Part shown: one piece after another, positions 147 through 44,093 of the stretch
Layout: each line of letters begins with the position of its first letter
How positions within the stretch are numbered: position 1 is the first letter of the stretch
NCBI RefSeq assembly: GCF_000807925.1
Contig: NZ_JRVC01000010.1
Span: 62,001 to 126,000, forward strand
Direction: 5' to 3'
From: Novosphingobium subterraneum
GTDB lineage: Bacteria > Pseudomonadota > Alphaproteobacteria > Sphingomonadales > Sphingomonadaceae
Length of the DNA stretch: 64,000 nt
Notes under the pieces: model-generated
What the model was told of the DNA's origin: nothing
What the model saw: only the letters and a program-made list of their open reading frames with translations
Database searches by the model: none
Made by a program: the position numbers and the translations under genes

Positions 147-1601
147 TCAGGCGCGCGCGGCGCGGCGGCCGGCCTGGCGCCCGAAGAAGGTGCAGTCGGC
201 AAGGCTCAGGCCAGAGGAATAGCCGTGGCCCCATGCCGGCAGGCCCGAGGTGCAGCGCCCTGCGGCGTAGAGTCCGGGGATCGGCGCGCCGGAGCGACCG
301 AGCACTTCACCGTCTGTCGAGGTCTTGAGCCCGCCCAAGGTGAAGAAGCTGAAGTAGCTTGTCTGGAAATTGCATTCGAGCGCGACGAACGGCGACTGGT
401 CGAGCGCTTTCAGGATCGGGGGCTGCTTGTCGAACAGGGGATCGCGGCCGTTGCGGGCGTGTTCGTTGTAGAAGTGCATCGTGGCCGAAAGCGTGCCTGC
501 GGGCATTTCGAGTTCGGCTTCGACTTCCTCCCACGTCTCGCCAGTGCCGGCGATGGTGATGCCGGCGAGGTCGAGCGGTCGGGTGAAGTGGGCGCTGTCG
601 AGCAGGAGGTAGACCTTGCCGCCCGGCTGGTCGACGGCGCAGCGGCTCACGCGGCCGTGGTAGCAGTCCTCGTTGATGAAGCGCTGCCCGGCGACGTTGA
701 CGAAGACGCCGTGGGCCTGTTCGGCCGGGATCGTCCACGGGCAGGTGGTGAAGAACTGGTCCATGTGAATCGCATCGCCGCCGACCGAAACGCCGAGTTC
801 GATGCCGATGCCGTCGTCCTTGTCGCCGATCGGGCTGTTCACGCGGAAGCTCTCGGGGCAGTATTTGCGGCGCATGGCCTCGTTGAAGACGAAGCCGCCG
901 GTGGCAAGGACGACGCCCTTGCGGGCGCGGACGAAGCGGTCCTTGTTGTCGATGCGGACGACGGCTCCGGCAATGGCGTCACCATCGGTGATGAGCGCGA
1001 CGGCGCGTGCGTCGACGTGGATCTCGGCGCCAAGATCGCGGGCGCGGCGTTCTAGTATGTCGACCAGCGGACGCCCGCCGCCCCAGCCCATGTGCTGGAT
1101 CACGTGGCCGCGCGGGGCGGGCTTTGCGTGTCGGTAGAACGGCGCGGCGGCCTCGCTACCCGACCAGATCAGGGTGGAATCGTCGGTCGGTTCGATCACC
1201 TTGCCGGGCAGGTAGTTGCCGCGATAGGGCACGCCCTGATCCTTCAGCCACTGGTAGTGCGCCAGCGCCTCGCGGCCATAGATCTCGCACTTGGCCTCAT
1301 CGACGCAGGGGCCGCCGGCAAGCTTGAGGTAGGCGGTGAAGTCTTCGACCGTATCGTCGAACCCTGCGGCCTTCTGCGCATCAGTACCGCCGCCGACGTA
1401 GATCTCGCCACCGGAGAGCGCCGAGGCACCGCCGCTGCCGGAACTGCGTTCGAACAGCAGGACCTCTGCACCCGCAACGCGGGCCTCGATCGCGGCACAA
1501 GCCCCGGTTGCGCCGAAGCCGATCACGGCGACGTCCGTCTCGAAATCCCACTTTTCGACCTGCGTAATCGGCAAAGGTCGATACTGCGAATATCCTGTCA
1601 T
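147..1601 (-). CDS. FAD-dependent 3-ketosteroid dehydrogenase-like protein (delta4-(5alpha) type)
   Basis: A 484-residue flavoprotein of the fumarate reductase/3-ketosteroid dehydrogenase superfamily. Residues 24-50 form the FAD-binding Rossmann motif (GFGATG at 28-33, then E-R), and SGSGGASALSGGEI follows. The C-terminal G-Y-S-S-G stretch (Tyr461, Ser463) before F-F-G-R-Q-A-G resembles the Tyr/Ser pair of 3-ketosteroid delta4-(5alpha)-dehydrogenases more than the KstD C-terminus. It would oxidise or reduce the steroid A ring at C4-C5 (inference). The longer frame reaches 1817, but ATG 1601 has a GGAAGG site 7 nt upstream and is where homology starts. It is divergent from the C/D-ring operon and preceded by the 70-bp element shared with hsaA. 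A different steroid double-bond specificity is possible. Confidence 0.7.
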   Translation of the reverse strand: MTGYSQYRPLPITQVEKWDFETDVAVIGFGATGACAAIEARVAGAEVLLFERSSGSGGASALSGGEIYVGGGTDAQKAAGFDDTVEDFTAYLKLAGGPCVDEAKCEIYGREALAHYQWLKDQGVPYRGNYLPGKVIEPTDDSTLIWSGSEAAAPFYRHAKPAPRGHVIQHMGWGGGRPLVDILERRARDLGAEIHVDARAVALITDGDAIAGAVVRIDNKDRFVRARKGVVLATGGFVFNEAMRRKYCPESFRVNSPIGDKDDGIGIELGVSVGGDAIHMDQFFTTCPWTIPAEQAHGVFVNVAGQRFINEDCYHGRVSRCAVDQPGGKVYLLLDSAHFTRPLDLAGITIAGTGETWEEVEAELEMPAGTLSATMHFYNEHARNGRDPLFDKQPPILKALDQSPFVALECNFQTSYFSFFTLGGLKTSTDGEVLGRSGAPIPGLYAAGRCTSGLPAWGHGYSSGLSLADCTFFGRQAGRRAARA

Positions 1602-1702: not shown

Positions 1703-1772
1703 GCATTCGTAATTTAAGATTGCATTGGATACGCAAATCGTCAATTGAAAAGGCAATCGCCTTTGGATATTG
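1703..1772 (-). promoter_or_regulatory. 70-bp promoter/operator element, copy A (twin of 33250-33319)
   Basis: This block aligns without gaps to 33250-33319 upstream of hsaA. The core GATACGCAAATCGTCAAT (1728-1745) is identical in both. An inverted repeat AAAGGC-AATC-GCCTTT (1749-1764) follows, and its arms differ from the other copy by paired changes that keep the dyad. GCATTCGTAA (1703-1712) is also shared. On the minus strand the core reads as a -35 box TTGACG (1739-1744), pointing at the FAD dehydrogenase. A weak -10 (AATCTT at 1716-1721) sits 17 bp downstream. The element is also 66 bp upstream of the proposed start of the rightward C/D-ring operon and could control both. Confidence 0.65.
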
Positions 1773-1837
1773 GCGATTTCGAATCTGCTGCGGTGCAACT
1801 TTCGGCACCTGCGGCATGGGATGGGAGAGCAGCCGCG

Positions 1838-2599
1838 GTGCAGGGCACTGATCACATTGACTTGGGCGGCCAGGTGGCGATCGTCACCGGGGGCACGCGC
1901 GGGCTGGGGCGGCAGATTGCGCAAGCCCTGCTGCGCGCCGGGGCTGCGGTGACAGTGTGTGGCCGAACCGAGCCTGACGATCTGCCCGAAGGCCTGACGT
2001 GTCGGGCGGCTGACATCCGCGATCCCGAACAGGCGCAGGCACTGGTCGATGGCGTGGTGGAGCGCCATGGGCGGCTGGACATCCTCGTGAATAACGCTGG
2101 GGGTTCACCGCAAGCCCCCGCCACGGCGAGCCCGCGCTTCTTCGATTCCATCGTGAAGCTGAACCTGCATTCGGCGATGTACATGTCGCAATATGCCTAT
2201 GCCCACATGGCGAAGGCCGGGGCTGGCAGCATCGTCAACATCGCCAGCGTATCGGGCATACGGCCCTCCCCCATGACGGCGGCCTATGGGGCGGCGAAGG
2301 CAGGGCTGCTCAGCCTGACGCAGAGCCTTGCGCAGGAGTGGGGGCCCGATGGCGTGCGCGTGAACGCGATCATCGTCGGCCTGATGCAGACCGAAACTTC
2401 GGAGGAAACCTATGGCGACGAGGCGGCGCAGGCTGCGGTTGCCAAATCGCTGCCGCTGCAGCGCATGGGCACCGGCGCGGACATCGCCGGAGCCGTGCTG
2501 TGGCTGAGTTCGAGCCTCGCCTCATGGGTGAGCGGCGCACGCATCAACGTCGATGGCGGGGGCGAGCGGCCCTACTTCCTCGACCTCGTGAAAGGATAA
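1838..2599 (+). CDS. Short-chain dehydrogenase/reductase (SDR), first gene of C/D-ring operon
   Basis: A classical NAD(P)-dependent SDR of 253 residues: cofactor motif TGGTRGLG at 17-24, N-N-A-G near 85-88, and catalytic Ser137, Tyr150, Lys154. A GTG start at 1838 is chosen because GGGAGAG lies about 8 nt upstream and it gives a typical SDR N-terminus. A longer reading from TTG 1745 would run through the shared promoter element and is unlikely. It leads the rightward operon and sits 6 bp before hsaC, so a hydroxysteroid or hydroxyacyl-CoA substrate of the steroid pathway is expected. The exact position, for example a 17-beta-hydroxysteroid, cannot be assigned. Confidence 0.75.
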   Translation: MQGTDHIDLGGQVAIVTGGTRGLGRQIAQALLRAGAAVTVCGRTEPDDLPEGLTCRAADIRDPEQAQALVDGVVERHGRLDILVNNAGGSPQAPATASPRFFDSIVKLNLHSAMYMSQYAYAHMAKAGAGSIVNIASVSGIRPSPMTAAYGAAKAGLLSLTQSLAQEWGPDGVRVNAIIVGLMQTETSEETYGDEAAQAAVAKSLPLQRMGTGADIAGAVLWLSSSLASWVSGARINVDGGGERPYFLDLVKG

Positions 2600-2605
2600 G
2601 CTGCC

Positions 2606-3529
2606 ATGGGCATAAAGGCACTGGGCTATGTCAGGATCGAAACCGCCAAGGCGGAGGCCTGGGACCACTTCATGACGCAAGTGGTCGGCACGATGCGGGC
2701 GGATGCGCCATGCGATGGCGTGGCGGCCTACCGGATCGACGACCGCCCGTTCCGCTTCTGGGTGGAGCGGGGCGAGAGCGACCGGCTTGTGGCTGCTGGT
2801 TATGAAGTCGGCGATGCGGCGGAACTGGCGGCGCTGCGCGAGACGATTGCCGGGCTGGGGCGCGAGATTGTCGATGGCGATGCGGATGCAGCAAAGGCGC
2901 GCGGCGTGGCGGCGTTCTTTGCGACGAGCGATCCTTCGGGCAACGGTCTCGAGTTCTTCCACGGCGATGTCCGCGACGATGTGGCGTTCGTTTCGCCGGT
3001 GGGCGTGAGCGGCTTCGTGACCGGAGACATGGGCATGGGGCACGCCGTGTTTGCGACGCCGAACTTTGACGAGGCGCACGCCTTCTACAAGGCCATCGGC
3101 TTTCGCGACACCGACATCCCGCGCTTCCGATTTTCGGACGATCCCAACGATCCGGGCATGGGCTTTGCCTTCATGCACGCCGACAATGGCCGCCACCATT
3201 CGGTAGCCATTGCGGAAATGCCGGTGCCGCCTTCTGCCTGCATCCACCTGATGCTGGAGATGAAGACGCAAAGCGACGTGGGCAAGTGCCATGATCGCAT
3301 GCGCATCAACAAGGTGCCCGAGAGCGCCTCGATCGGCCGGCACGTCAACGACCAGACCTTCGGCTTCTACATGCAGACGCCCTCTGGCTTCGACATCGAG
3401 ATCGGGGCCGATCCGCTGGTGATCGATTACACGAACTGGACACCGACTGCGCATCTGATCCCCAGCGAATGGGGCCATGTCTGGGCATGGCAGAAGGCGC
3501 TTGAAGAGCAGGCAGGAGAACAGGCGTGA
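2606..3529 (+). CDS. hsaC: 3,4-dihydroxy-9,10-seco-steroid 4,5-dioxygenase (extradiol, HsaC-type)
   Basis: A 307-residue two-domain VOC-fold extradiol dioxygenase that cleaves the catecholic A ring of the 9,10-seco steroid (3,4-DHSA) between C4 and C5. The Fe(II) ligands are visible in the C-terminal half: His146 (M-G-H-A), His214 (C-I-H-L-M) and Glu265 (F-D-I-E-I-G). The active-site residues His198, His246 and Tyr255 are at the positions expected from BphC/HsaC enzymes. N-terminal G-Y-V-R-I-E and the segment G-R-H-V-N-D also match HsaC of Mycobacterium by memory. It is separated from the other A/B-ring genes (hsaADEGF at 28353-33194) and overlaps ipdA by 4 nt. The product goes to HsaD. Confidence 0.9.
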   Translation: MGIKALGYVRIETAKAEAWDHFMTQVVGTMRADAPCDGVAAYRIDDRPFRFWVERGESDRLVAAGYEVGDAAELAALRETIAGLGREIVDGDADAAKARGVAAFFATSDPSGNGLEFFHGDVRDDVAFVSPVGVSGFVTGDMGMGHAVFATPNFDEAHAFYKAIGFRDTDIPRFRFSDDPNDPGMGFAFMHADNGRHHSVAIAEMPVPPSACIHLMLEMKTQSDVGKCHDRMRINKVPESASIGRHVNDQTFGFYMQTPSGFDIEIGADPLVIDYTNWTPTAHLIPSEWGHVWAWQKALEEQAGEQA

Positions 3530-20240: not shown

Positions 20241-20912
20241 TTACGTGTCTGAAGCGAGGGAGGCGAAGTAATCGGCAATGATCCTGTCCGGCATGCCGAT
20301 GCCACGCAGGCAGAACCACGTCGCCTGCCTGACAAGATCATCCCCCGCGATTCCGTAAGGCCTTGCCGCCAAAGGCAATCCCCCGATTGCGGCCATCATC
20401 GTCCCGACATGTTCGACGAACATGGCAGCGGCGGGCACGTCGAGAGGCTCGCCCTCAAGTCCACCCTCGGCCCGGGCAGAGGCATAGGCCGCGTCCATGG
20501 CAGCCCCGTGGCGCCGCTGCGAGCGGCGATAGATCAGGCTGGCGTAGGAGCCATCGCCTGCAAGGCTGGCCAGGGTCATGCGATGCGTATCATGACGGGC
20601 AGGATCATCTGCATCGGTCGCGCAGGCGGAGATGAAAGTGTGGATCGCACTGGCGAGGCCCCGCGCACCTTCGCCGTGCACGCCCTGTTCGCGCCAGCGC
20701 TCGTCCTGCTCGAGAAATACCTGGCGCAGGACCGCGCGGTAGAGGGCGAGCTTGCTGGGGAAATGACGGAACACCAGCGCCTCCGAGACCTTCGCCTCGC
20801 GCGCGATCTGCAGGGTCTTGGCTCCGTCATAGCCGTGCTGTGAAAAGACCCGCCGTGCGGCGGCAACGATCTGGCCTCGGCGCTGCACGCCCGGTAAACG
20901 GGTCCTTGTCAT
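20241..20912 (-). CDS. TetR/AcrR-family transcriptional regulator
   Basis: A 223-residue regulator. The N-terminal TetR DNA-binding domain covers about residues 9-58 (A-A-R-R-V-F-S-Q-H-G-Y-D-G...E-A-L-V-F-R-H-F-P-S-K), and the C-terminal three-quarters is the helical ligand-binding part. ATG 20912 is preferred over GTG 20918. It lies between the C/D-ring operon and the Coq4-like/TonB receptor region. TetR proteins such as KstR and KstR2 repress steroid genes in actinobacteria, so it could sense a steroid or its CoA ester (inference). An inverted repeat directly before the start suggests autoregulation. Confidence 0.82.
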   Translation of the reverse strand: MTRTRLPGVQRRGQIVAAARRVFSQHGYDGAKTLQIAREAKVSEALVFRHFPSKLALYRAVLRQVFLEQDERWREQGVHGEGARGLASAIHTFISACATDADDPARHDTHRMTLASLAGDGSYASLIYRRSQRRHGAAMDAAYASARAEGGLEGEPLDVPAAAMFVEHVGTMMAAIGGLPLAARPYGIAGDDLVRQATWFCLRGIGMPDRIIADYFASLASDT

Positions 20913-20916
20913 GATC

Positions 20917-20944
20917 ACTCACTTACTTGGCAGACGGAGTGAGT
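20917..20944. promoter_or_regulatory. Candidate TetR operator (inverted repeat)
   Basis: Perfect 7-bp arms ACTCACT (20917-20923) and AGTGAGT (20938-20944) are separated by 14 bp. The dyad begins 4 bp upstream of the TetR start codon and lies in the 49-bp gap before the Coq4-like gene end. Position and symmetry fit an autoregulatory operator. No exact second copy was noticed in the window. Confidence 0.45.
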
Positions 20945-28352: not shown

Positions 28353-29390
28353 TCAGGCTTGCGCTTTCAGCATGTCGAGCGCGACGTCGACGATCATGTC
28401 TTCCTGTCCGCCGACCATCTTGCGGCGGCCGAGTTCGACGAGGATCGCGCGCGTATCGAGGCCGTAGGTCTCGGCAGCCTTTTCGGCATGGCGCAGGAAA
28501 CTGGAGTAGACCCCGGCATAGCCCAGTGCGAGCGTCTCGCGATCGACACGGACGGGGCGGTCCTGCAGTGGGCGGACGAGGTCTTCGGCAGCGTCCATCA
28601 GCATCATCACGTCGCAGCCGTGGTTCCAGCCCTTGCGATCGATGGCGGCGATGAAGACTTCGAGCGGGGCGTTGCCCGCGCCCGCGCCCATGCCGGTCAG
28701 CGAAGCGTCGATGCGCACCGCGCCGCACTGCGCGGCAACGATCGAGTTGGCGACGCCGAGGCCGAGGTTGTGGTGGGCGTGCATGCCGCGCTGGGTTTCG
28801 GGCTTCAGCACGCGGTCATAGGCTTGAAAGCGCGCGCGAACGCCGTCCATGTCAAGCGCGCCGCCACTGTCGGTGACATAGACGCACTGTGCGCCGAAGC
28901 TTTCCATCAGGAGCGCCTGCTGGGCGAGGGCGTCGGGCTCGATCATGTGGCTCATCATCAGGAAGCCCGAGACGTCCATGCCAAGATCGCGGGCGATGCC
29001 GATGTGCTGCTTGCTGACGTCGGCCTCGGTGCAGTGCGTGGCGACGCGGACCGAGCGGACGCCGATGTCATAGGCGCGGCGCAGTTCCTCGACGGTGCCC
29101 ACGCCGGGCAGGATCAGCGTGGTCAGCACGCACTTGTCGAGCACGTCGGCCACGGCTTCCAGCCATTCCCAATCGGTGTGCGCGCCGAAGCCGTAGTTGA
29201 AGCTGGCGCCGGAAAGGCCATCACCATGGGCGACCTCGATGGCATCGACGCCCGACTTCTCGATGGCCGAGGCAATCGCGCGGACGTGGTCGATGCCGTA
29301 CATGTGCCGAACCGCGTGCATGCCGTCACGCAGCGTCACGTCCTGGATGTAGAGCTTGTCGCCGGCTTCGACGTTGAAGGTGGCAGTCAT
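28353..29390 (-). CDS. hsaF: 4-hydroxy-2-oxovalerate aldolase-type HsaF
   Basis: A 345-residue DmpG-family aldolase that splits 4-hydroxy-2-oxo acid into pyruvate and an aldehyde, channelled to HsaG. The TIM-barrel active site is complete: Arg21-Asp22-Gly (T-L-R-D-G), His25, and metal ligands His204 and His206 in M-H-A-H-H-N-L-G. The C-terminal DmpG-type communication domain follows ([14 protein letters not shown]). ATG 29390 has AAGGAGAT upstream, 13 bp after hsaG. In the seco-steroid pathway the aldehyde product is propionaldehyde. A general meta-cleavage aldolase would look the same; the context decides. Confidence 0.9.
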
Positions 29391-29403
29391 CGTCCGATCT
29401 CCT

Positions 29404-30345
29404 TCAGGCGGCAGCAGCGGCCATGCGGCGCGCGGCAAGCAGTTCGCCGGTGGCCTTGGCGGCGGCAGTCATGATGTCGAGATTGCCGGAGTAGCTGGGC
29501 AGGTAGTCGCCTGCGCCCTCGACTTCGAGCATGATCATCGACTTGATGCCGGTGAATTCGCCTTGCCCAGGAATCTTCAGGCGGTTGTTGTCGCCGAAGC
29601 GTTCGAACTGGACTTCCTGCTTGAGCCGGTAGCCGGGGACGTACTTCTGCACTTCGGCCACCATATCGGCCACCGACCGGCGGATGGCGTCCTCATCGCC
29701 GCCTTCGGACAGGGTGAACACGGTATCGCGCATGATCATCGGCGGTTCGGCCGGATTGAGGATGATGATAGCCTTGCCCTTGGCGGCGCCGCCCACCTGT
29801 TCGATCGCACGGGCGGTGGTGCGGGTGAACTCGTCGATGTTGGCGCGGGTGCCGGGTCCGGCCGAGCGCGAGGAGACCGACGCCACGATTTCGGCATAGT
29901 GGAGCTTGTCCGAGACGCGGGCGACGGCGGCGACCATCGGGATCGTCGCCTGACCGCCGCAAGTCACCATGTTGACGTTGGGCTGGTCGAGGTGCTGGCC
30001 CATGTTGACCGGCGGCACGGTGAAGGGACCGATGGCCGCGGGGGTAAGGTCCACCACCTGGATGCCATCGGCGCGCAGAGCCTCGTCATGGACCTTGTGG
30101 GCGTAGGCGCTGGTCGCGTCGAAGGCGATGCCGATGTCCTTGTAGAGCGGGTGGGCGCGCAGGCCTTCGAGGCCTTCGTGCGTGGTGGCGATGCCGTGTT
30201 CGCGCGCCATGGCCAGGCCTTCGGACTTCTCGTCGATGCCGACGACGATCGCCAGTTCCATGTTCTGCGGGTACTTGATCATCTTCATCATCAGGTCGGT
30301 GCCGATATTGCCCGAACCGATGATCGCGGCCTTGACGCGTGCCAT
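29404..30345 (-). CDS. hsaG: Acylating aldehyde dehydrogenase HsaG
   Basis: A 313-residue DmpF-family CoA-acylating dehydrogenase that turns the aldehyde from HsaF into acyl-CoA with NAD+. The Rossmann start [10 protein letters not shown] and the catalytic Cys129 in [10 protein letters not shown] are present. It lies between hsaE (11 bp) and hsaF (13 bp), the normal aldolase-dehydrogenase pairing that allows substrate channelling. Length is typical for the family. Confidence 0.9.
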
Positions 30346-30356
30346 TCAGGTATTCC

Positions 30357-31151
30357 TCAAACGAAGTTGGCGACGCAGGTGCCGAGTGGCCCTGCAGCGT
30401 TGCTGAGTGTCATTTCGAAGCGATCGCCCTTCACGGCGGGCGCGAGCGGGACGAGTGAACCGGACAGGATCACGTCGCCTGCATCGAGCGTCACGCCATA
30501 GGCGCCGAGCGTGTTGGCGAGCCAAGCCACCGCCTGTGCCGGATCGCCCTGAACTGCGTGGCCATGGCCTTCGGACAGCGGTTCGCCGTTCTTGGTGACG
30601 GCCACGTGCAGATTGGGCAGGTCCAGCCCGGCGGGGTCGAGCCGTTCATTGCCGATCACGTAGACCCCGCATGAGGCGTTGTCGGACACGGTATCGACGA
30701 TCATGATGTTCCAGTTGTCGATGCGGCTGTCGACGATCTCGAAGCAGGGGGCGATGCTTTCGGTGGCTGCAAGAACGTCAGCGGCCGTGACGCCGGGGCC
30801 ATTGAGGCTGCTCTTGAGGATGAACGCGATCTCGGCCTCGGCGCGCGGAGCAATCAGGGCCTTGGCGTCGATGTCGATGTCACCTTCGACATGCATCCAG
30901 TCGGTCAGGAAGCCGAAGTCGGGCTGGTGGACGCCAAGCATGTCCTGCACGGCCTTGCTGGTCACGCCGATCTTCTTGCCGACGACCTTCTCGCCATCGG
31001 CGACGCGGCGCGAAAGGAAATCGAGGTTGATGGCATAGGCATCGTCGAGCGTCAGCGAGGGGTCCTGCTCGATCAGCGGGGCGATGGTCTTGCGGGTGCG
31101 CAGGGCTTCGTAAAGCGCCGCGCCATAGTGCTGGATCTTATCGGCGGGCAT
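30357..31151 (-). CDS. hsaE: 2-hydroxydienoate hydratase HsaE
   Basis: A 264-residue hydratase of the fumarylacetoacetate-hydrolase/MhpD family that hydrates the 2-hydroxy-dienoate released by HsaD. Family blocks are V-G-K-K-I-G-V-T-S-K-A-V-Q, A-E-A-E-I-A-F-I-L (metal-site Glu pair) and I-L-S-G-S-L-V-P. The open frame extends to 31241, but ATG 31151 (M-P-A-D-K-I) is where homology begins. It overlaps the end of hsaD by 14 nt, so translation is coupled. Confidence 0.88.
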   Translation of the reverse strand: MPADKIQHYGAALYEALRTRKTIAPLIEQDPSLTLDDAYAINLDFLSRRVADGEKVVGKKIGVTSKAVQDMLGVHQPDFGFLTDWMHVEGDIDIDAKALIAPRAEAEIAFILKSSLNGPGVTAADVLAATESIAPCFEIVDSRIDNWNIMIVDTVSDNASCGVYVIGNERLDPAGLDLPNLHVAVTKNGEPLSEGHGHAVQGDPAQAVAWLANTLGAYGVTLDAGDVILSGSLVPLAPAVKGDRFEMTLSNAAGPLGTCVANFV

Positions 31152-31983
31152 TGAGGAACTCGATGGCAAAGGCGTTGAACTCGGCAGCGCGTTCGACCTG
31201 GACCCAGTGGCCGGTGCGGCCGAAAGTGATCGCGCGGACATCGGGGCAATGGTCGAGGAACAGGCGCGCGTGGGCTTCCGGGCAGAACTCGTCGTTCAGA
31301 CCCCACAGCACGAAGACCGGCTGGGTGATTTCCGGCAGCCGCGGCGAGAGGTCGGGCGTGCGCATGCGCACCAGCACGTCCTTGGGCTGGGTGCGGGCGA
31401 CGGCGAAGCGTTCCTCCACCAGGGCATCCGGGATCTTGGGGGCGAAGTCCGGGTGGACGAGGCTCGAGACGAGGCGCTTCTGCTCGGCCAGGTTGAAGTC
31501 CGGCCCCCCGAAGCTGGAGACCATCTTGGTGATGCCCGGCATCACGAAGTAGGCCTCGCGCTCGGCCACGCAGCCAGGGGCCATCAGCACCAGATTGCGG
31601 GTGAAGCCGGGGTGGTCGAGCGTCATGAGCAGGGCAATGCCGCCGCCCAGCGAATTGCCGACGAGGCTGGCGCTGGTCACGCCGTGGGCGACGAGCGCTT
31701 CGTACACGGTATCGGTGAAGAGCTGCAGCGTGTAGTCCAGCCCCTCTGGCTTGGACGAGCCGCCATAACCGATCAGGTCGGGCAGGATCACGCGGTAACC
31801 GGCGTCCACAAAAGCATCGATGTTCTGGCGGAAGTTGGACGCACCGGAGGCGCCGGGGCCGCTGCCGTGCAGGAAGACGACGGCAGGCGCGGAAGGATCG
31901 CCCGCTTCGGCAATGACAATTTCGTATCCGCCGGAGACGCGATGCGTGGTCTGGGTCAGGCTAGCCAAGGGTGGCGCTCCCAT
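31138..31983 (-). CDS. hsaD: Meta-cleavage product hydrolase HsaD
   Basis: A 281-residue alpha/beta hydrolase of the C-C bond hydrolase type. It carries the oxyanion segment H-G-S-G-P-G-A-S-G at 39-47, nucleophile Ser111 in G-N-S-L-G-G, Asp231 in G-L-N-D-E-F, and His259 in G-R-T-G-H-W-V-Q. It splits the HsaC product (4,9-DSHA) into the C/D-ring propionate HIP and 2-hydroxyhexa-2,4-dienoate. The start ATG 31983 overlaps the hsaA stop by one base. Confidence 0.9.
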   Translation of the reverse strand: MGAPPLASLTQTTHRVSGGYEIVIAEAGDPSAPAVVFLHGSGPGASGASNFRQNIDAFVDAGYRVILPDLIGYGGSSKPEGLDYTLQLFTDTVYEALVAHGVTSASLVGNSLGGGIALLMTLDHPGFTRNLVLMAPGCVAEREAYFVMPGITKMVSSFGGPDFNLAEQKRLVSSLVHPDFAPKIPDALVEERFAVARTQPKDVLVRMRTPDLSPRLPEITQPVFVLWGLNDEFCPEAHARLFLDHCPDVRAITFGRTGHWVQVERAAEFNAFAIEFLNARR

Positions 31984-33194
31984 CAGAGGAAGGTGAAGGT
32001 CGGTTCCTGACCGAGCATCGCGCCGACCACGTCGAGCGTACGATTGGCCGGGTCATTGGCGACGTGTGCGCGGCCGGCGTTGAGATCGAGCCAGGGCTGG
32101 ATGATCGCGCTGGACGTGTAGATCGCGCGACCGCCCAGCAGCTTGACCATGTCGTCGACCAGATCGGCCATGCGGCGCACCACGCTCGCCGAGTTGTAGG
32201 CAAACAGGGTGCGCTTCTCCATCGGGATCGGCTCGCCTGCTTCGGCCAGGGCCATCAATTCATCGAAGGTGAGGCGCAGGGTCTGCTCCATCTCCGTCAC
32301 TTCGGCCTGCGCACGGGCGATGGCGGCAAGAAGAAACGGATCGTTCTTGGAAGCCTTGCCGGTGTTGGTCGAGACGCGGTTCTGGGCAATGTCCATGGCG
32401 GCAGAAATCGCCGCGCGCGCGCCGCCGAAGGCAGCGGTCGAGACCGAGCGCATGAAAACCTGGGCCCAGGGCAAGGTGTAGAGGGGCCCCGTGTTGGTCT
32501 GCTGGCCGGGGTTGGTGCAGAGATATCCGTCGATCGAACGGTGAGTACGGTGTTCGGGGACGAACACATCGTCGACAATTATGTCATGGCTGCCAGTACC
32601 CTGCAAACCGAAGACGTGCCAGCTGTCGGTGTCGATCGTATAGTCGGCGCGGGGCAACAGGAACGCGCGCATGTCGGGCACGCCGCCTTCTTCGCGCGGC
32701 GGGACCATCGCGCCCAATACGACCCACTGACAATGGACGGAGCCGGTCGAGAAGCCCCAGCGGCCCGAGAGTCGATAACCGCCTTCGACCGGGGTGACCT
32801 TGCCGACGGGCTGGTAGGAGGAGGACACGAGGGTGGAGGTGTCCTCGCCCCAAACCTCGGCCTGCGCTTCTTCGTGAAAGAGCGCGATTTCATAAGGATG
32901 GCAACCGACCACGCCGTACATCCAGCCGGTGGACATGCAACCTTCGGCAAGGGCCCGCTGCACATCGTAGAAGACGTTGGGGTGCATTTCGTAGCCGCCC
33001 CAGCGCTTGGGCTGAAGGATGCGGAAGAAACCAGCCTCACGGAATTCGGCAACGGATTGCGCCGGAACGTCACGCCCGGCGACGCATTCGGCCGCGCGCT
33101 GGCGCAAGGCGGGGATCATGGCCCTTGCCCGGGCGACGAGCTCTTCGCCCGACGGGATCGAGCTTTCGAGCGAAATTGCAGCTGCGCTGGCCAT
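31983..33194 (-). CDS. hsaA: 3-HSA hydroxylase oxygenase subunit HsaA
   Basis: A 403-residue flavin-dependent monooxygenase with the acyl-CoA dehydrogenase fold. It hydroxylates the phenolic 3-HSA to the catechol used by HsaC and needs a reduced flavin from a partner (HsaB). HsaA-like blocks are G-F-F-R-I-L-Q-P-K-R-W-G-G-Y, C-M-S-T-G-W, E-V-W-G-E-D and G-L-Q-G-T-G-S-H-D-I, with H-V-A-N-D-P near the end. ATG 33194 has GGAGGAGAGG upstream; a longer frame to 33272 enters the promoter. It is first in a nine-gene leftward operon. No hsaB-type flavin reductase is in the window. Confidence 0.9.
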   Translation of the reverse strand: MASAAAISLESSIPSGEELVARARAMIPALRQRAAECVAGRDVPAQSVAEFREAGFFRILQPKRWGGYEMHPNVFYDVQRALAEGCMSTGWMYGVVGCHPYEIALFHEEAQAEVWGEDTSTLVSSSYQPVGKVTPVEGGYRLSGRWGFSTGSVHCQWVVLGAMVPPREEGGVPDMRAFLLPRADYTIDTDSWHVFGLQGTGSHDIIVDDVFVPEHRTHRSIDGYLCTNPGQQTNTGPLYTLPWAQVFMRSVSTAAFGGARAAISAAMDIAQNRVSTNTGKASKNDPFLLAAIARAQAEVTEMEQTLRLTFDELMALAEAGEPIPMEKRTLFAYNSASVVRRMADLVDDMVKLLGGRAIYTSSAIIQPWLDLNAGRAHVANDPANRTLDVVGAMLGQEPTFTFL

Positions 33195-33604
33195 GAGCGG
33201 CCTCTCCTCCGGTACGACTTTCGACTCACGCACTGCTTTACGTGGCAATGCATTCGTAAAAAGATATCGCAACAGATACGCAAATCGTCAATCAAAAAGC
33301 ATATCTGCTTTTGATATTGATAAAATTGCGGCTCATTGCACATGGAGGACTTGCGACATCCACACGGCGTGCGTGCATGGGCATCACCTCGGGAAGTGTG
33401 TGCCAGGTCGCGCTGTGGCCGCAGACGTCCTTCCTGATGCCCCTCCCCGCCTTGCCAGTGCCCGACGGCCGATGGACCTTCTCAACCAACACAAATTGCG
33501 CAGACAATGTAGATAATTTTTGCGAGAAGCGCCATGAATGATCTCAACAGCAAAGCAGTTGCGTATGATTCGCAGCCAAAAGCAAGGCGGAGAGGGGCAG
33601 CGCG
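33195..33604. promoter_or_regulatory. Divergent intergenic region, hsaA / SnoaL-AhpD-SDR operon
   Basis: A 410-bp region without a convincing gene. It contains the shared 70-bp element (listed separately) near hsaA and, near the rightward gene, another TTGCGTA heptamer at 33559-33565. The middle part (33330-33550) shows no clear repeat or promoter. The rightward transcript probably starts close to the second heptamer. Confidence 0.4.
33250..33319 (-). promoter_or_regulatory. 70-bp promoter/operator element, copy B (hsaA promoter)
   Basis: The twin of 1703-1772. The identical core GATACGCAAATCGTCAAT is at 33275-33292. The inverted repeat AAAAGCA-TATC-TGCTTTT (33295-33312) is longer and more perfect than in copy A. 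GATATTG (33313-33319) and GCATTCGTAA (33250-33259) are also shared. On the minus strand TTGACG (33286-33291) is a -35 box, with GATATC 17 bp or TATCTT 19 bp downstream as -10. The dyad lies just upstream of the -35 box, the usual place for an activator site or a repressor overlapping the promoter. hsaA begins 56 bp downstream of the element. Confidence 0.7.
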
Positions 33605-41551: not shown

Positions 41552-41603
41552 GCAAAAATGCGTGCTTTGCGCAACACTCGCCAGCGAGTGCGACGCATTT
41601 TGC
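41552..41603. repeat. Long imperfect inverted repeat upstream of TonB receptor
   Basis: Outer arms GCAAAAATGCGT (41552-41563) and ACGCATTTTGC (41593-41603) enclose a perfect inner hairpin CACTCG-CCAG-CGAGTG (41575-41590). It lies in the 282-bp gap between the DUF3857 gene and the receptor at 41712. A second inverted repeat (CCCTACGT at 41478-41485, ACGTAGGG at 41531-41538) is just before it. It could be a terminator, a large operator, or both. TGCGTAG at 41644-41650 closer to the receptor resembles the TTGCGTA sites elsewhere. Confidence 0.45.
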
Positions 41604-41711
41604 CGAAATACAGAGTTTCCAGTTGCCATCCTCGCTGCATATGCGTAGCTTAAGTCCGAATTGATTGCGCGAAAGCGCATCGGAAAGTATCCTGGAGAGG
41701 GAGAGGACATC

Positions 41712-44093
41712 GTGAGGAAACTGCTCGCCGCTACGGCATTGAGCTCGCTCGCCTTTGTTGCAGCACCGGCATTCGCGCAAGATTTGCCGCAGGATTCCGC
41801 GCAAGACACTGCTGCCGAAAATACCTCGGGTATCGGCGAGATCGTCGTCACTGCGCAGAAGCGGGCCGAAAACATCCAGAACGTGCCGATCGCCATCTCG
41901 GCGGTGAGCAGCCAGTTCCTCGAGACGCGCGGGATCACCTCGATCGACAGCCTCGGCTCGATCGCGCCGAACGTGAAGTTCGAACGTGCGCCATCGAACA
42001 AGACGATTTCGCAGATCGCCATCCGCGGATCGGTGACGATCAACCCGGCCGTGACCTGGGAACCTGCCGTCGGCCTTTACCTGGGCGGCGTCTACATTGC
42101 CAAGGCGCAGGGTTCGATCTTCGACGTGGCCGACCTGGAGCGCGTTGAAATCCTGCGCGGTCCGCAGGGCACGCTTTATGGCCGCAACGCGCTGGCCGGT
42201 GCCGTCAATCTCGTGCCCAAGGCGCCGAGCGGCGAACTGGGCGTGAAGGGCGAGCTGACGTATGGGAACTACGATTACTGGAAGGGGCGCGCCGTGGTCG
42301 ATCTTCCGGCGATGGGGCCCTTCTCGCTCAAGCTTTCGGGCCAGATCCAGAAGCGTGACGGCTTCATCAGGCTGACGCCCAATCCCTATCCCCAGGCGGT
42401 AGCCGCGGGCCCTGCGCGCACCGGTCGCACCAACGACCTCGACGGCAAGAGCGGCATGGTCCAGCTGCGCTTCAAGCCTGAAGGCAGCAACTTCACCGCC
42501 GACTACATGTTCGACTATTCGAAGTTCGATCAGCGCCCGGACTATGCCCAGCTGGTCCGCGTCAACCGCAATGGCCTTCCCCAGGACATCTTCGATCCCA
42601 ACTCGCCCGGCTATGCCAACGGCGGAGCGTTCTTCCCGCTCAACCTCTATGACCGGGCCGACCGCCAGTCGACCGCATCTCTCGACGCCAACCCGCTTTA
42701 CGAACGTTCGCGCACTTATGGTCACGCGCTGACCCTCGCGCTCGACCTCGGCGGCGCCACGGTCAAGTCGATCACCGCCTACCGCAATCTCAAGTGGGCG
42801 GACTCGCTCGATCTTGATGGCTCGCCGCTGCCGGTGGCGCTGACCCAGCGCGATACCAGCTTCCACAGCTGGAGCCAGGAACTGCAGGTTTCGGGCCAGA
42901 CGATGAGCGACAAGCTCAAGTACGTCGCGGGCGTGTTCTACTACAAGGAAAAGGCCGAAACGCTCGGGCCGCAAAGCTTCTTCGGCGGCGGTGCGTCTTA
43001 CCAGTCCGACTACGGATCGAACACCGAGGCGTTCGCCGTATTCGCGCAGGTCGATTACGACATCACTGATGCCCTGAAGCTGACGCTCGGCGGGCGCTAC
43101 ACGCACGAGAAGAAGGATGTGCGCCGCTTCCTGCGCATCAACTTCGATCCGGCAAACGGCATCTTCGCCCCGTTCGTCGCGGCGAACATCCCCTATGGCG
43201 GCGTGCCCGATGCCAAGTACAACCGCTTCAACCCGGCGATCACGCTGGCCTATCAGGCAGACGAGAACATCAATCTCTACGCTCGCTTCGCGCAAGGCTT
43301 CAAGTCGGGCGGCTTCAATGGCGAAACCAACGACTTCCGCCAGCCGACGGCGGCTTGCCCGACCGGCGCATTTGAGCTGTGCAACCCCTATCGCCCGGAA
43401 ACGGTCGACAGCTACGAAGTCGGCATCAAGACCAAGCTGGCCGATGGCAAGGTGATCTTCAACGTCGCCGGCTTCTGGGACGAGCACAAGGACATCCAGC
43501 TTTCGGTCTTCACCGCCAACGGTGCGGCAGCCTCGGTCGTCAAGAACGCAGCTGCCGCGCGCATCCGCGGCTTGGAAATCGAGACGGTGATCCGTCCGGT
43601 CGACGTTCTGACGATCAACGGCTCGCTCGCCTTCCTTGACCCGAAGTACAAGAGCTATATCGAGGCAGTGGGCGGTGTGGATACCAACGTCGCCGACAAC
43701 CGCGCCTTCCCGCACACACCCAAGACCACGGCGGCAGCGGGCGTCGACCTGCGCGTGGCGCAGGGTGACTGGGGCCGCTTCAACGTGAACGGCGACATCA
43801 ACTATGTCTCCAGCTATTACACTTTCCCCTATGCCCTGAACACGACCAACCCGTCGGACCAGAACGCCAACAACACCAAGTCCAGGGGCCGCACCATCGT
43901 GAACCTGCGCGCCGCAGTTTCCGAAGTGCCGCTGGGCGGGGCGAAGGCTGAATTGGCGCTGTGGGTCAAGAACCTGACCAAGGAGCGCGATCCTTCCAAC
44001 TTCATCGACTTTGGCCCGGGCTTTGGCGGCCTGACGGTCGGGTATTTCCCCGATCCGCGCACTTACGGCCTCACGCTGGGCGTGAAGTTCTGA
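41712..44093 (+). CDS. TonB-dependent outer membrane receptor
   Basis: A 793-residue receptor: signal peptide ending A-P-A-F-A-Q, plug start E-I-V-V-T-A-Q-K-R-A-E-N-I-Q-N-V-P, and plug motif I-L-R-G-P-Q-G-T-L-Y-G-R-N-A-L-A-G-A-V. The barrel has repeated G-F-K-S-G-G-F-N blocks and a terminal G-L-T-L-G-V-K-F. It starts with GTG 41712 after GGAGAGGGAGAGG; the upstream in-frame start lacks a signal peptide. The stop overlaps the following SDR start by one base, and a DUF1214 gene comes next, so uptake and first modification of one substrate may be coupled (inference). The ligand is unknown. Confidence 0.88.
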   Translation: MRKLLAATALSSLAFVAAPAFAQDLPQDSAQDTAAENTSGIGEIVVTAQKRAENIQNVPIAISAVSSQFLETRGITSIDSLGSIAPNVKFERAPSNKTISQIAIRGSVTINPAVTWEPAVGLYLGGVYIAKAQGSIFDVADLERVEILRGPQGTLYGRNALAGAVNLVPKAPSGELGVKGELTYGNYDYWKGRAVVDLPAMGPFSLKLSGQIQKRDGFIRLTPNPYPQAVAAGPARTGRTNDLDGKSGMVQLRFKPEGSNFTADYMFDYSKFDQRPDYAQLVRVNRNGLPQDIFDPNSPGYANGGAFFPLNLYDRADRQSTASLDANPLYERSRTYGHALTLALDLGGATVKSITAYRNLKWADSLDLDGSPLPVALTQRDTSFHSWSQELQVSGQTMSDKLKYVAGVFYYKEKAETLGPQSFFGGGASYQSDYGSNTEAFAVFAQVDYDITDALKLTLGGRYTHEKKDVRRFLRINFDPANGIFAPFVAANIPYGGVPDAKYNRFNPAITLAYQADENINLYARFAQGFKSGGFNGETNDFRQPTAACPTGAFELCNPYRPETVDSYEVGIKTKLADGKVIFNVAGFWDEHKDIQLSVFTANGAAASVVKNAAAARIRGLEIETVIRPVDVLTINGSLAFLDPKYKSYIEAVGGVDTNVADNRAFPHTPKTTAAAGVDLRVAQGDWGRFNVNGDINYVSSYYTFPYALNTTNPSDQNANNTKSRGRTIVNLRAAVSEVPLGGAKAELALWVKNLTKERDPSNFIDFGPGFGGLTVGYFPDPRTYGLTLGVKF

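Follow-up and report, generated by a model that had tools for sequence, protein, structure and literature searches.

We analysed a stretch of 64,000 nucleotides from Novosphingobium subterraneum (contig NZ_JRVC01000010.1, positions 62,001 to 126,000 of the forward strand; hereafter the window) that holds a steroid-degradation gene cluster in two parts. An FAD-binding dehydrogenase gene and the C/D-ring operon, which starts with a short-chain dehydrogenase/reductase (SDR) gene and an hsaC-like gene, lie at 1.7 kb, the hsa operon lies at 33 kb, and a copy of the same 70-bp element stands at each (elements A and B; Table 1). The two copies align without gaps at 53 of 70 positions and, exactly as the original prediction had counted, agree at 37 of the 45 positions from 1728 on. 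The 18-bp core with its minus-strand TTGACG, proposed there as a -35 box, is also the same in both, and the next-best ungapped match to either block in the window, on both strands, is 34/70. The reading of this DNA as a shared steroid promoter element stands: it is under strong selection and appears to contain the binding site of a regulator. Overall, we think it probable that the element is a duplicated divergent promoter carrying the operator of a steroid regulon controlled by Lrp/AsnC proteins and repressed when steroid is absent.

Table 1. The two promoter elements, their predicted parts and neighbouring genes (positions in the window; a dot marks features without strand)
Feature	Position	Strand	Remarks
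Element A	1703..1772	-	promoter toward FAD dehydrogenase, with overlapping divergent promoter toward SDR/hsaC C/D-ring operon (both predicted)
Operator in element A, CATTCGTA-N18-TACGCAAA	1704..1737	.	one mismatch to WTGCGTA-N18-TACGCAW
-35 TTGACG, FAD dehydrogenase side	1739..1744	-	TTGAC invariant in 54 aligned orthologous sites
Predicted -10 AATCTT	1716..1721	-	between operator half-sites; conserved TG at extended -10 position; placed by 17-bp spacing
Putative divergent -35 TTGAAA, C/D-ring operon	1745..1750	+	
Predicted divergent -10 GATATT	1766..1771	+	15 bp past -35; alternative TATTGG at 17 bp
Element B	33250..33319	-	predicted promoter toward hsaA
Operator in element B, CATTCGTA-N18-TACGCAAA	33251..33284	.	
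hsaA -35 TTGACG	33286..33291	-	
Predicted hsaA -10 GATATC	33263..33268	-	between operator half-sites
Decayed divergent -35, TCAAAA not TTGAAA	33292..33297	+	side without C/D-ring operon
FAD-binding dehydrogenase, target of element A	147..1601	-	ancestral layout: downstream within hsaA operon
SDR, first gene of C/D-ring operon	1745..2599	+	mechanically called reading frame; true start further in
Extradiol dioxygenase, HsaC-like	2606..3529	+	below the family's cut-off
hsaA-like monooxygenase, target of element B	31983..33194	-	below the family's cut-off
Remaining hsa operon: hydrolase (HsaD-like), hydratase, acetaldehyde dehydrogenase, aldolase	28353..31983	-	
Weak operator-like site, two mismatches	41641..41672	.	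around mechanically called start of TonB receptor reading frame 41661-44093

No third copy was found in the whole genome. When positions 1690-1790 were compared by BLASTN with the genome (G000; 4.88 Mb in 54 contigs), copy B was returned at E 2e-7, and the other matches were of 14-22 bases at E 0.4 or worse. Likewise, a profile of 54 orthologous sites, with 150 of 496 first-look candidates scored, recovered A (4e-17) and B (2e-14) alone at E<=10. In the window, profile R1 gave element A an E of 5e-19. A dispersed repeat was rejected, the element being present in two copies in this genome and in one to three copies in each of 25 other genomes.

The element is a regular feature of hsaA promoters. 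A protein search with HsaA gave 66 loci, of which 59 were used (six below 60% identity and one cut by a contig end were excluded), and together with the window these provided 60 upstream regions. In 55 of them the block can be aligned and stands about 40-130 bp ahead of the start codon; the rest (L024, L028, L057, L061 and L072) match poorly overall and keep, at 0-1 mismatch, the palindrome described below. Invariant in the 54-row alignment are TTGAC, TTTGCGTA and three letters of a downstream TTACGAA. In a search of 397 genomes of the family, with stricter filters and 12 candidates scored per genome, so that absence means absence at that sensitivity, the element was present in 32, 29 of which have one copy at E<=0.001; G218 and G296 each show a second, weak match.

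In most of the loci read, the element lies between a divergent hsaA-hsaD-(hsaB)-hsaE-hsaG-hsaF operon, often with the FAD dehydrogenase gene in it, and an SDR-hsaC-CoA transferase-C/D-ring gene set; these names come partly from family matches, several of them below curated cut-offs, and hsaB and the CoA transferase were labelled by eye. Eight relatives have a split cluster like that of the window (L009-L012, L014-L016 and L062; N. taihuense, N. jiangmenense and six others), and each carries just two elements at E<=0.01: the first accompanies hsaA, and the second lies between the FAD dehydrogenase and SDR-hsaC. Five genomes in which the C/D operon is still beside hsaA (L013 and L017-L020) have one element each. 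Since the split relatives hold two elements and the unsplit genomes one, the best reading is that A and B arose by duplication of a single divergent promoter, of which each half of the cluster would have kept a copy. The element before the FAD dehydrogenase was found again in the split-cluster clade, and no element was detected within 450 bp upstream of the relatives of this gene at the surveyed loci, our own genome excepted, where the gene is mostly inside the hsaA operon. N. meiothermophilum (G405, L022) has three elements (C13:24418, C13:36345 and C1:731754), which precede the hsaA, FAD dehydrogenase and SDR-hsaC genes.

The element likely holds a promoter facing hsaA and, overlapping it, a divergent promoter toward the C/D operon; the boxes of both are predicted by sequence. 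On the hsaA strand, TTGACG, whose final G is present in 53/55, is followed after 17 bp by a region in which a TG at the extended -10 place is conserved and one A is found in 55/55. This first arm, TTGACG-N17-(TGn)-10, would drive hsaA, or the FAD dehydrogenase gene in the case of copy A. Transcription starts are predicted near 1709 (minus) and 33256 (minus) and, for element A only, near 1778 (plus) on the divergent side. On the opposite strand TTGAAA overlaps the TTGACG arm at AATT and is followed in the window, 15 bp on, by GATATT, and this second arm, TTGAAA-N15-GATATT, would drive the C/D operon. If it does, TTGAA should decay where the C/D operon is absent. TTGAA was kept in 42/44 elements with an adjacent C/D operon compared with 1/10 without (Fisher p 1e-7, which is not exact, the rows being related and the grouping having been made stricter after the first result). 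Adjacency here meant an hsaC or CoA-transferase cluster next to the element, and L050 was left out as lying at a contig end. In the nine split genomes (the window and its eight relatives), TTGAAA was kept in eight of the nine C/D-side copies and TTGAA was lost in all nine hsaA-side copies, the window itself having TTGAAA in A and TCAAAA in B. L027, with two elements, keeps TTGAAA in the C/D-side copy only, and L025 keeps it in both. Several observations do not fit this picture so well. The first, looser grouping gave 42/47 with the C/D operon and 2/8 without; L338, the exception among the C/D-side copies, has TTAAAA, and L034 has TTGCAA; and G405 has TTGAAA in its hsaA (L022/L328) and FAD-dehydrogenase (L354) copies, with TTGATA in its C/D copy (L363).

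The element contains a palindrome of 34 bp, (T)WTGCGTA-N18-TACGCAW(A), and the predicted -10 of the hsaA arm falls between its half-sites; the divergent sites L057, L061 and L072 have the inverted pair of TTTGCGTA and TACGCA around the -10. In our own genome, TTTGCGTA-N18-TACGMA with up to two mismatches gave 43 strand-hits compared with 22 for a reversed control. These are concentrated on three contigs (C10, C14 and C15) and frequently occur on both strands, which exposed the motif as a palindrome. For further counts we used WTGCGTA-N18-TACGCAW with one mismatch allowed and the reversed pattern as control; at this stringency 100 shuffled windows gave no site. The 32 element-bearing genomes contain 208 sites, 2-12 each (control 29), and nine genomes chosen for an FAD dehydrogenase of at least 63% identity and no element match contain 49 sites, 2-10 each (control 13). 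Four sites, one each in four genomes, were found in 24 genomes chosen as negatives for having neither the element nor a close FAD dehydrogenase (control 22), which were picked by hand, mostly by low handle number, and are not a random sample. The gap is fixed: across 20 regions of 10-20 kb round the Lrp gene pair discussed below, there were 43 sites at 18 bp, one at 26 bp and none at 10-17, 19-25 or 27 bp. Among 157 distinct sites (pre-selected at no more than one mismatch, and omitting those less than 40 bases from a locus end), the half-site is WTGCGTA with a T preferred before it and CG in all after rounding, and the inner 18 bases hold little consensus or information. With up to two mismatches, the operator was not found at the distant hsaA loci L067, L069 and L070 (Gammaproteobacteria), L068 (Proteobacteria) and L074 (Pseudoduganella). 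At another distant hsaA locus, L073, there is one match with two mismatches.

The genes behind these sites tie them to steroid metabolism. Eleven of the 12 operator sites of our own genome fall within C10:1-126000, C14:155-174 kb and C15:112-146.6 kb, three stretches that together span about 180 kb, or 3.7% of the genome, and each site stands before a called reading frame. The proteins encoded there include KshA_C/Rieske, TonB receptor, SDR, flavin monooxygenase and sulfotransferase-type proteins and, below the NCBIfam cut-off, a KstD-like FAD protein, an HsaA-like protein and a ligase whose best match is steroid-24-oyl-CoA synthetase; in addition, a tandem Lrp/AsnC gene pair has one of the sites at its start. 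In short, the sites stand before steroid genes and are scarce in genomes without the pathway genes that were sought. Because the same operator precedes kshA-, kstD-, hsaA-, TonB-receptor-, SDR- and CoA-ligase-like genes, we propose that these form one steroid regulon, and we regard the operator and its regulon as nearly certain to be real. The assembly has a rated completeness of 100% and a contamination of 6.47%, and the assignment of C14 and C15 to the same organism rests on it.

This palindrome is not the operator that had been proposed. The original prediction placed it in the 45-bp core, in a dyad whose inner arms, AAAGGC/GCCTTT in one copy and AAAGCA/TGCTTT in the other, seemed to have changed in compensation, which would reveal a bound dimer. 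The letters are as described, both window copies keep the dyad, and AAAG and CTTT are fairly conserved; across the 54 orthologues, compensation is at best weakly supported. Although the covariation score in the given register (0.216) exceeds that of every slid version (best 0.197), it is reached by 29/500 shuffles. Pairing holds in 67.6% of cells, a value that 32/500 shuffles reach and that rises to 70.1% when one arm is slid by +1. Pairs changed on both sides number five, no more than in shuffles (186/500), and the innermost pair is broken in 38/54 orthologues and another in 26. Furthermore, the dyad occupies the spacer of the overlapping divergent promoter, and what recurs throughout the regulon is the fixed-gap palindrome, which lies partly outside the 45-bp core. 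We therefore find it very unlikely that the dyad is the operator. The original argument that intergenic DNA would retain such likeness only if a regulator bound it was right in that an apparent regulator site is present, whereas the likeness itself would come first from the descent of both copies from one divergent promoter, duplicated when the cluster split. That this descent explains everything, the blocks being alike by recent duplication with no regulator involved, is hardly credible: the copies do seem to share that origin, as the pairs of elements in the eight split relatives indicate, but TTGACnnTTTGCGTA does not vary among the 54 sites, in contrast to the diverged flanks, and the palindrome recurs with its exact 18-bp gap at unrelated promoters.

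As for the protein that reads the operator, the best candidate, and quite probably the right one, is a tandem pair of Lrp/AsnC proteins (P0003-like and P0001-like) encoded on another contig. All three candidates, P0001, P0002 and P0003, have an AsnC-type helix-turn-helix (HTH; Pfam) above cut-off at the N terminus. The C-terminal RAM (AsnC_trans_reg) domain is above cut-off in P0001 and P0003; P0002 has no RAM match at E<=0.001, and its NCBIfam Lrp-type matches, which are below cut-off, extend into the C-terminal half. Solved Lrp/AsnC chains are matched by P0003, with the best match spanning residues 16-161, and an NCBIfam equivalog cut-off is reached by none of the candidates. Among 65 genomes searched at E<=1e-10 (the 32 element, nine FAD-dehydrogenase and 24 negative genomes), relatives of P0001 are present in 29/32, 6/9 and 0/24, and those of P0002 in 32/32, 9/9 and 0/24, respectively. 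Relatives of P0003 (E<=1e-30, 397 genomes) are present in 28/32 element genomes versus 9/365 others, and in three of the four element genomes that have none (G161, G174 and G220) the element has an Lrp/AsnC gene at a distance of 5-6 kb. In the 20 regions round the pair, its first-found gene is closest to P0003 (51-88% identity); an operator lies within 110 bp of the 3' end of the pair in 12 of them, and in 11 of these the following codirectional gene encodes, by resemblance, a KshA-like Rieske protein. The second pair of our own genome has an operator at its own start. Contig C15 of this genome carries five Lrp/AsnC genes (73716-74683, 122718-123793 and 129353-129883), that is, two tandem pairs and a single gene, which overlaps the end of a preceding gene whose upstream side holds weaker operators.

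Some findings weigh against this assignment and, in part, against the regulon as drawn. Eight of the 20 regions have no operator close to the pair; the nearest equivalent of the usual pair in our own genome (C15:73.7-74.7 kb), like the pairs of G206, G273 and G372, has no site with up to two mismatches within about 10 kb on either side; G057 and G168, two of the nine FAD-dehydrogenase genomes, have operator counts not above control; and the fragmented G296 has nine sites, a partial P0002 match on another contig and no match to P0001 or P0003. The co-occurrence of sites and pair could also reflect only that both belong to steroid degraders.

By itself, co-occurrence does not separate the binder from passengers of the cluster, and operator and regulon may be real while some other regulator, encoded elsewhere in steroid degraders, does the binding. 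The 18-bp gap, unlike the 13-17-bp sites described for Lrp dimers, the eight regions without a nearby operator, and G296, with sites and no full pair, would all agree with this. No such protein came into view, however: judged from sequence, no regulator within 20 kb on either side of the element was among the clusters present in at least 4 of 11 cases (10 genomes and the window), and none other than the two Lrp genes was among those in at least 6 of the 20 regions round the pair, whose neighbours are apparent enzymes, transporters and receptors. The TetR protein of the window (20241-20918), named in the original prediction as a possible binder, was rejected as a universal regulator, having relatives at E<=1e-20 in nine of the 32 element genomes and missing from 23. 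The LuxR protein named with it was not encountered, no LuxR-type protein being present among the 43 distinct window reading frames, a part of the total, that were scanned with Pfam. The operator of EdcR, TnnCnnTACnAnTnGTAnnGnnA, differs as well. A different binder is thus unlikely. We consider it somewhat less improbable, yet still on the unlikely side, that the Lrp/AsnC pair does bind and acts mainly as a steroid-dependent activator with the DNA wrapped round an octamer. Such a mode would suit the poor -10 boxes, the operators of the kstD-like and SDR genes centred near -55.5, the 22-bp steps of -55.5, -33.5 and -11.5 on one face of the helix, and the precedent of BarR, an activating Lrp-type protein according to the accessible part of PMC4977709; it suits less well the hsaA, SDR and TonB-receptor-like promoters with a recognisable -35, in which the operator covers the -10 or the -35.

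Among sites with an assignable TTGAC box, the commonest operator centres are -11.5 (hsaA; 54 rows), -55.5 (kstD-like and SDR genes; 10), -33.5 (TonB-receptor-like genes where a reading frame was seen; 9) and -8.5 (SDR genes; 8), with the rest scattered; the counts come from 110 TTGAC words, and as many rows are orthologues they represent four kinds of promoter rather than dozens of independent cases. At -11.5, -33.5 and -8.5 the operator overlies the core promoter, a placement that speaks for repression relieved by a steroid metabolite. The spacing of -55.5, -33.5 and -11.5 amounts to two helical turns and is consistent with one face of the DNA, -8.5 falling off this series. The sites near -55.5, upstream of the -35, suit an activator as well as a repressor and tell against a purely repressive scheme. 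On balance repression seems somewhat more likely than activation. That the Lrp proteins bind and repress, and what their effector is, we infer: without steroid, the Lrp/AsnC pair would occupy the core promoter and block RNA polymerase, and a steroid or steroid-CoA would release or rearrange the proteins.

A more specific model can be put forward tentatively. It supposes an undescribed global steroid regulon of sphingomonads under a two-protein Lrp/AsnC hetero-oligomer with a steroid or steroid-CoA as effector, in which each heterodimer would take about 17 bp and two heterodimers, head to head, would fill a 34-bp composite operator, with operators at 22-bp steps on one face of the promoter. In each heterodimer, TWTGCGTA would be read by one subunit, and the other subunit would contact an inner half without specificity. 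Such a head-to-head arrangement would account for the 18-bp gap as well as for the gene pair. Some sphingomonads are known to degrade steroid hormones and bile salts, and for this group the analysis defines an operator exactly, lists its targets, describes how the promoter is laid out and names a candidate pair of regulators. The element is also a candidate steroid-responsive promoter for biosensors, and it offers an apparent case of a divergent promoter that was duplicated and then lost one arm once the operon of that arm had left.

Among known regulators of steroid catabolism, KstR and KstR2 of Actinobacteria cover A/B-ring and C/D-ring genes, and as repressors of a steroid (cholesterol) catabolic regulon they resemble the system proposed here. 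EdcR of Caenibius tardaugens is, from what is accessible of PMC8700777, a TetR protein with a putative palindromic operator over the -10 of oestrogen-degradation promoters, which it represses in an oestrogen-dependent manner. The sphingomonad steroid promoters of both systems thus have a palindrome overlapping the -10. Unlike the regulator proposed here, EdcR is of the TetR type and, as far as that source describes it, controls the edc cluster through another palindrome; when the two operators were compared by eye, the TAC/GTA order and the gap in TnnCnnTACnAnTnGTAnnGnnA differed from those of the 34-bp palindrome. TeiR/TesR of Comamonas testosteroni likewise regulates a proteobacterial steroid pathway and differs in being a LuxR-type activator, according to the available parts of PMC12239570 and PMC8399759. 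Nearest to our case is the bile-salt cluster of Sphingobium sp. Chol11, with the contiguous Lrp/AsnC genes NCHOL11_RS15865/RS15860 (PMC12882949). The likeness, drawn by description only, lies in tandem Lrp/AsnC genes within a sphingomonad steroid cluster; the accessible text of that paper mentions the genes without an operator, a regulon or the element. A literature search, with most subscription journals outside its scope, turned up neither this operator nor any steroid regulon under Lrp/AsnC control in the texts at hand, PMC12882949 being the closest.

The Lrp/AsnC family itself is known for repression and DNA wrapping (PMC2995911, PMC8707732, both in the parts available). The candidates share its AsnC-type HTH and, in P0001 and P0003, the RAM domain. 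They differ from it in that the genes come as a tandem pair and would serve steroid catabolism rather than amino-acid metabolism. A further difference speaks against the Lrp assignment: Lrp dimers read imperfect inverted repeats of 13-17 bp, going by the portion of PMC2995911 at hand, whereas here inverted TWTGCGTA half-sites stand 18 bp apart in a 34-bp site. The palindrome as a whole is thus longer than such repeats, and two 17-bp sites head to head, as proposed above, would fit.

Several smaller observations were made on the way. The TetR gene of the window has a relative at C10:26489-27142, 41% identical, and relatives of the two occur in 13/397 genomes, nine of them with the element. About 75 bp from the weak operator-like site near the start of the TonB receptor reading frame (Table 1) lies a second one, at 41567-41598, also with two mismatches. 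Tandem elements are present in L025 (4700 and 5795), L027 (4670 and 5763) and L048 (5703 and 5889), with an SDR-like gene between them in L025 and L027. By eye, many hsaA leaders (L009-L072) share the word GAGTCG or GATTCGA about 20-45 bp past TTACGAA, and the C/D side of the element repeatedly shows GATTCGAAAA or GAATCGCG. Finally, to the left of the element in L042, L043, L046, L049-L052, L058 and L059, the C/D side carries ATTACGCA, which by eye amounts to an extra TGCGTAAT half-site by the divergent -10 and may be a second operator.
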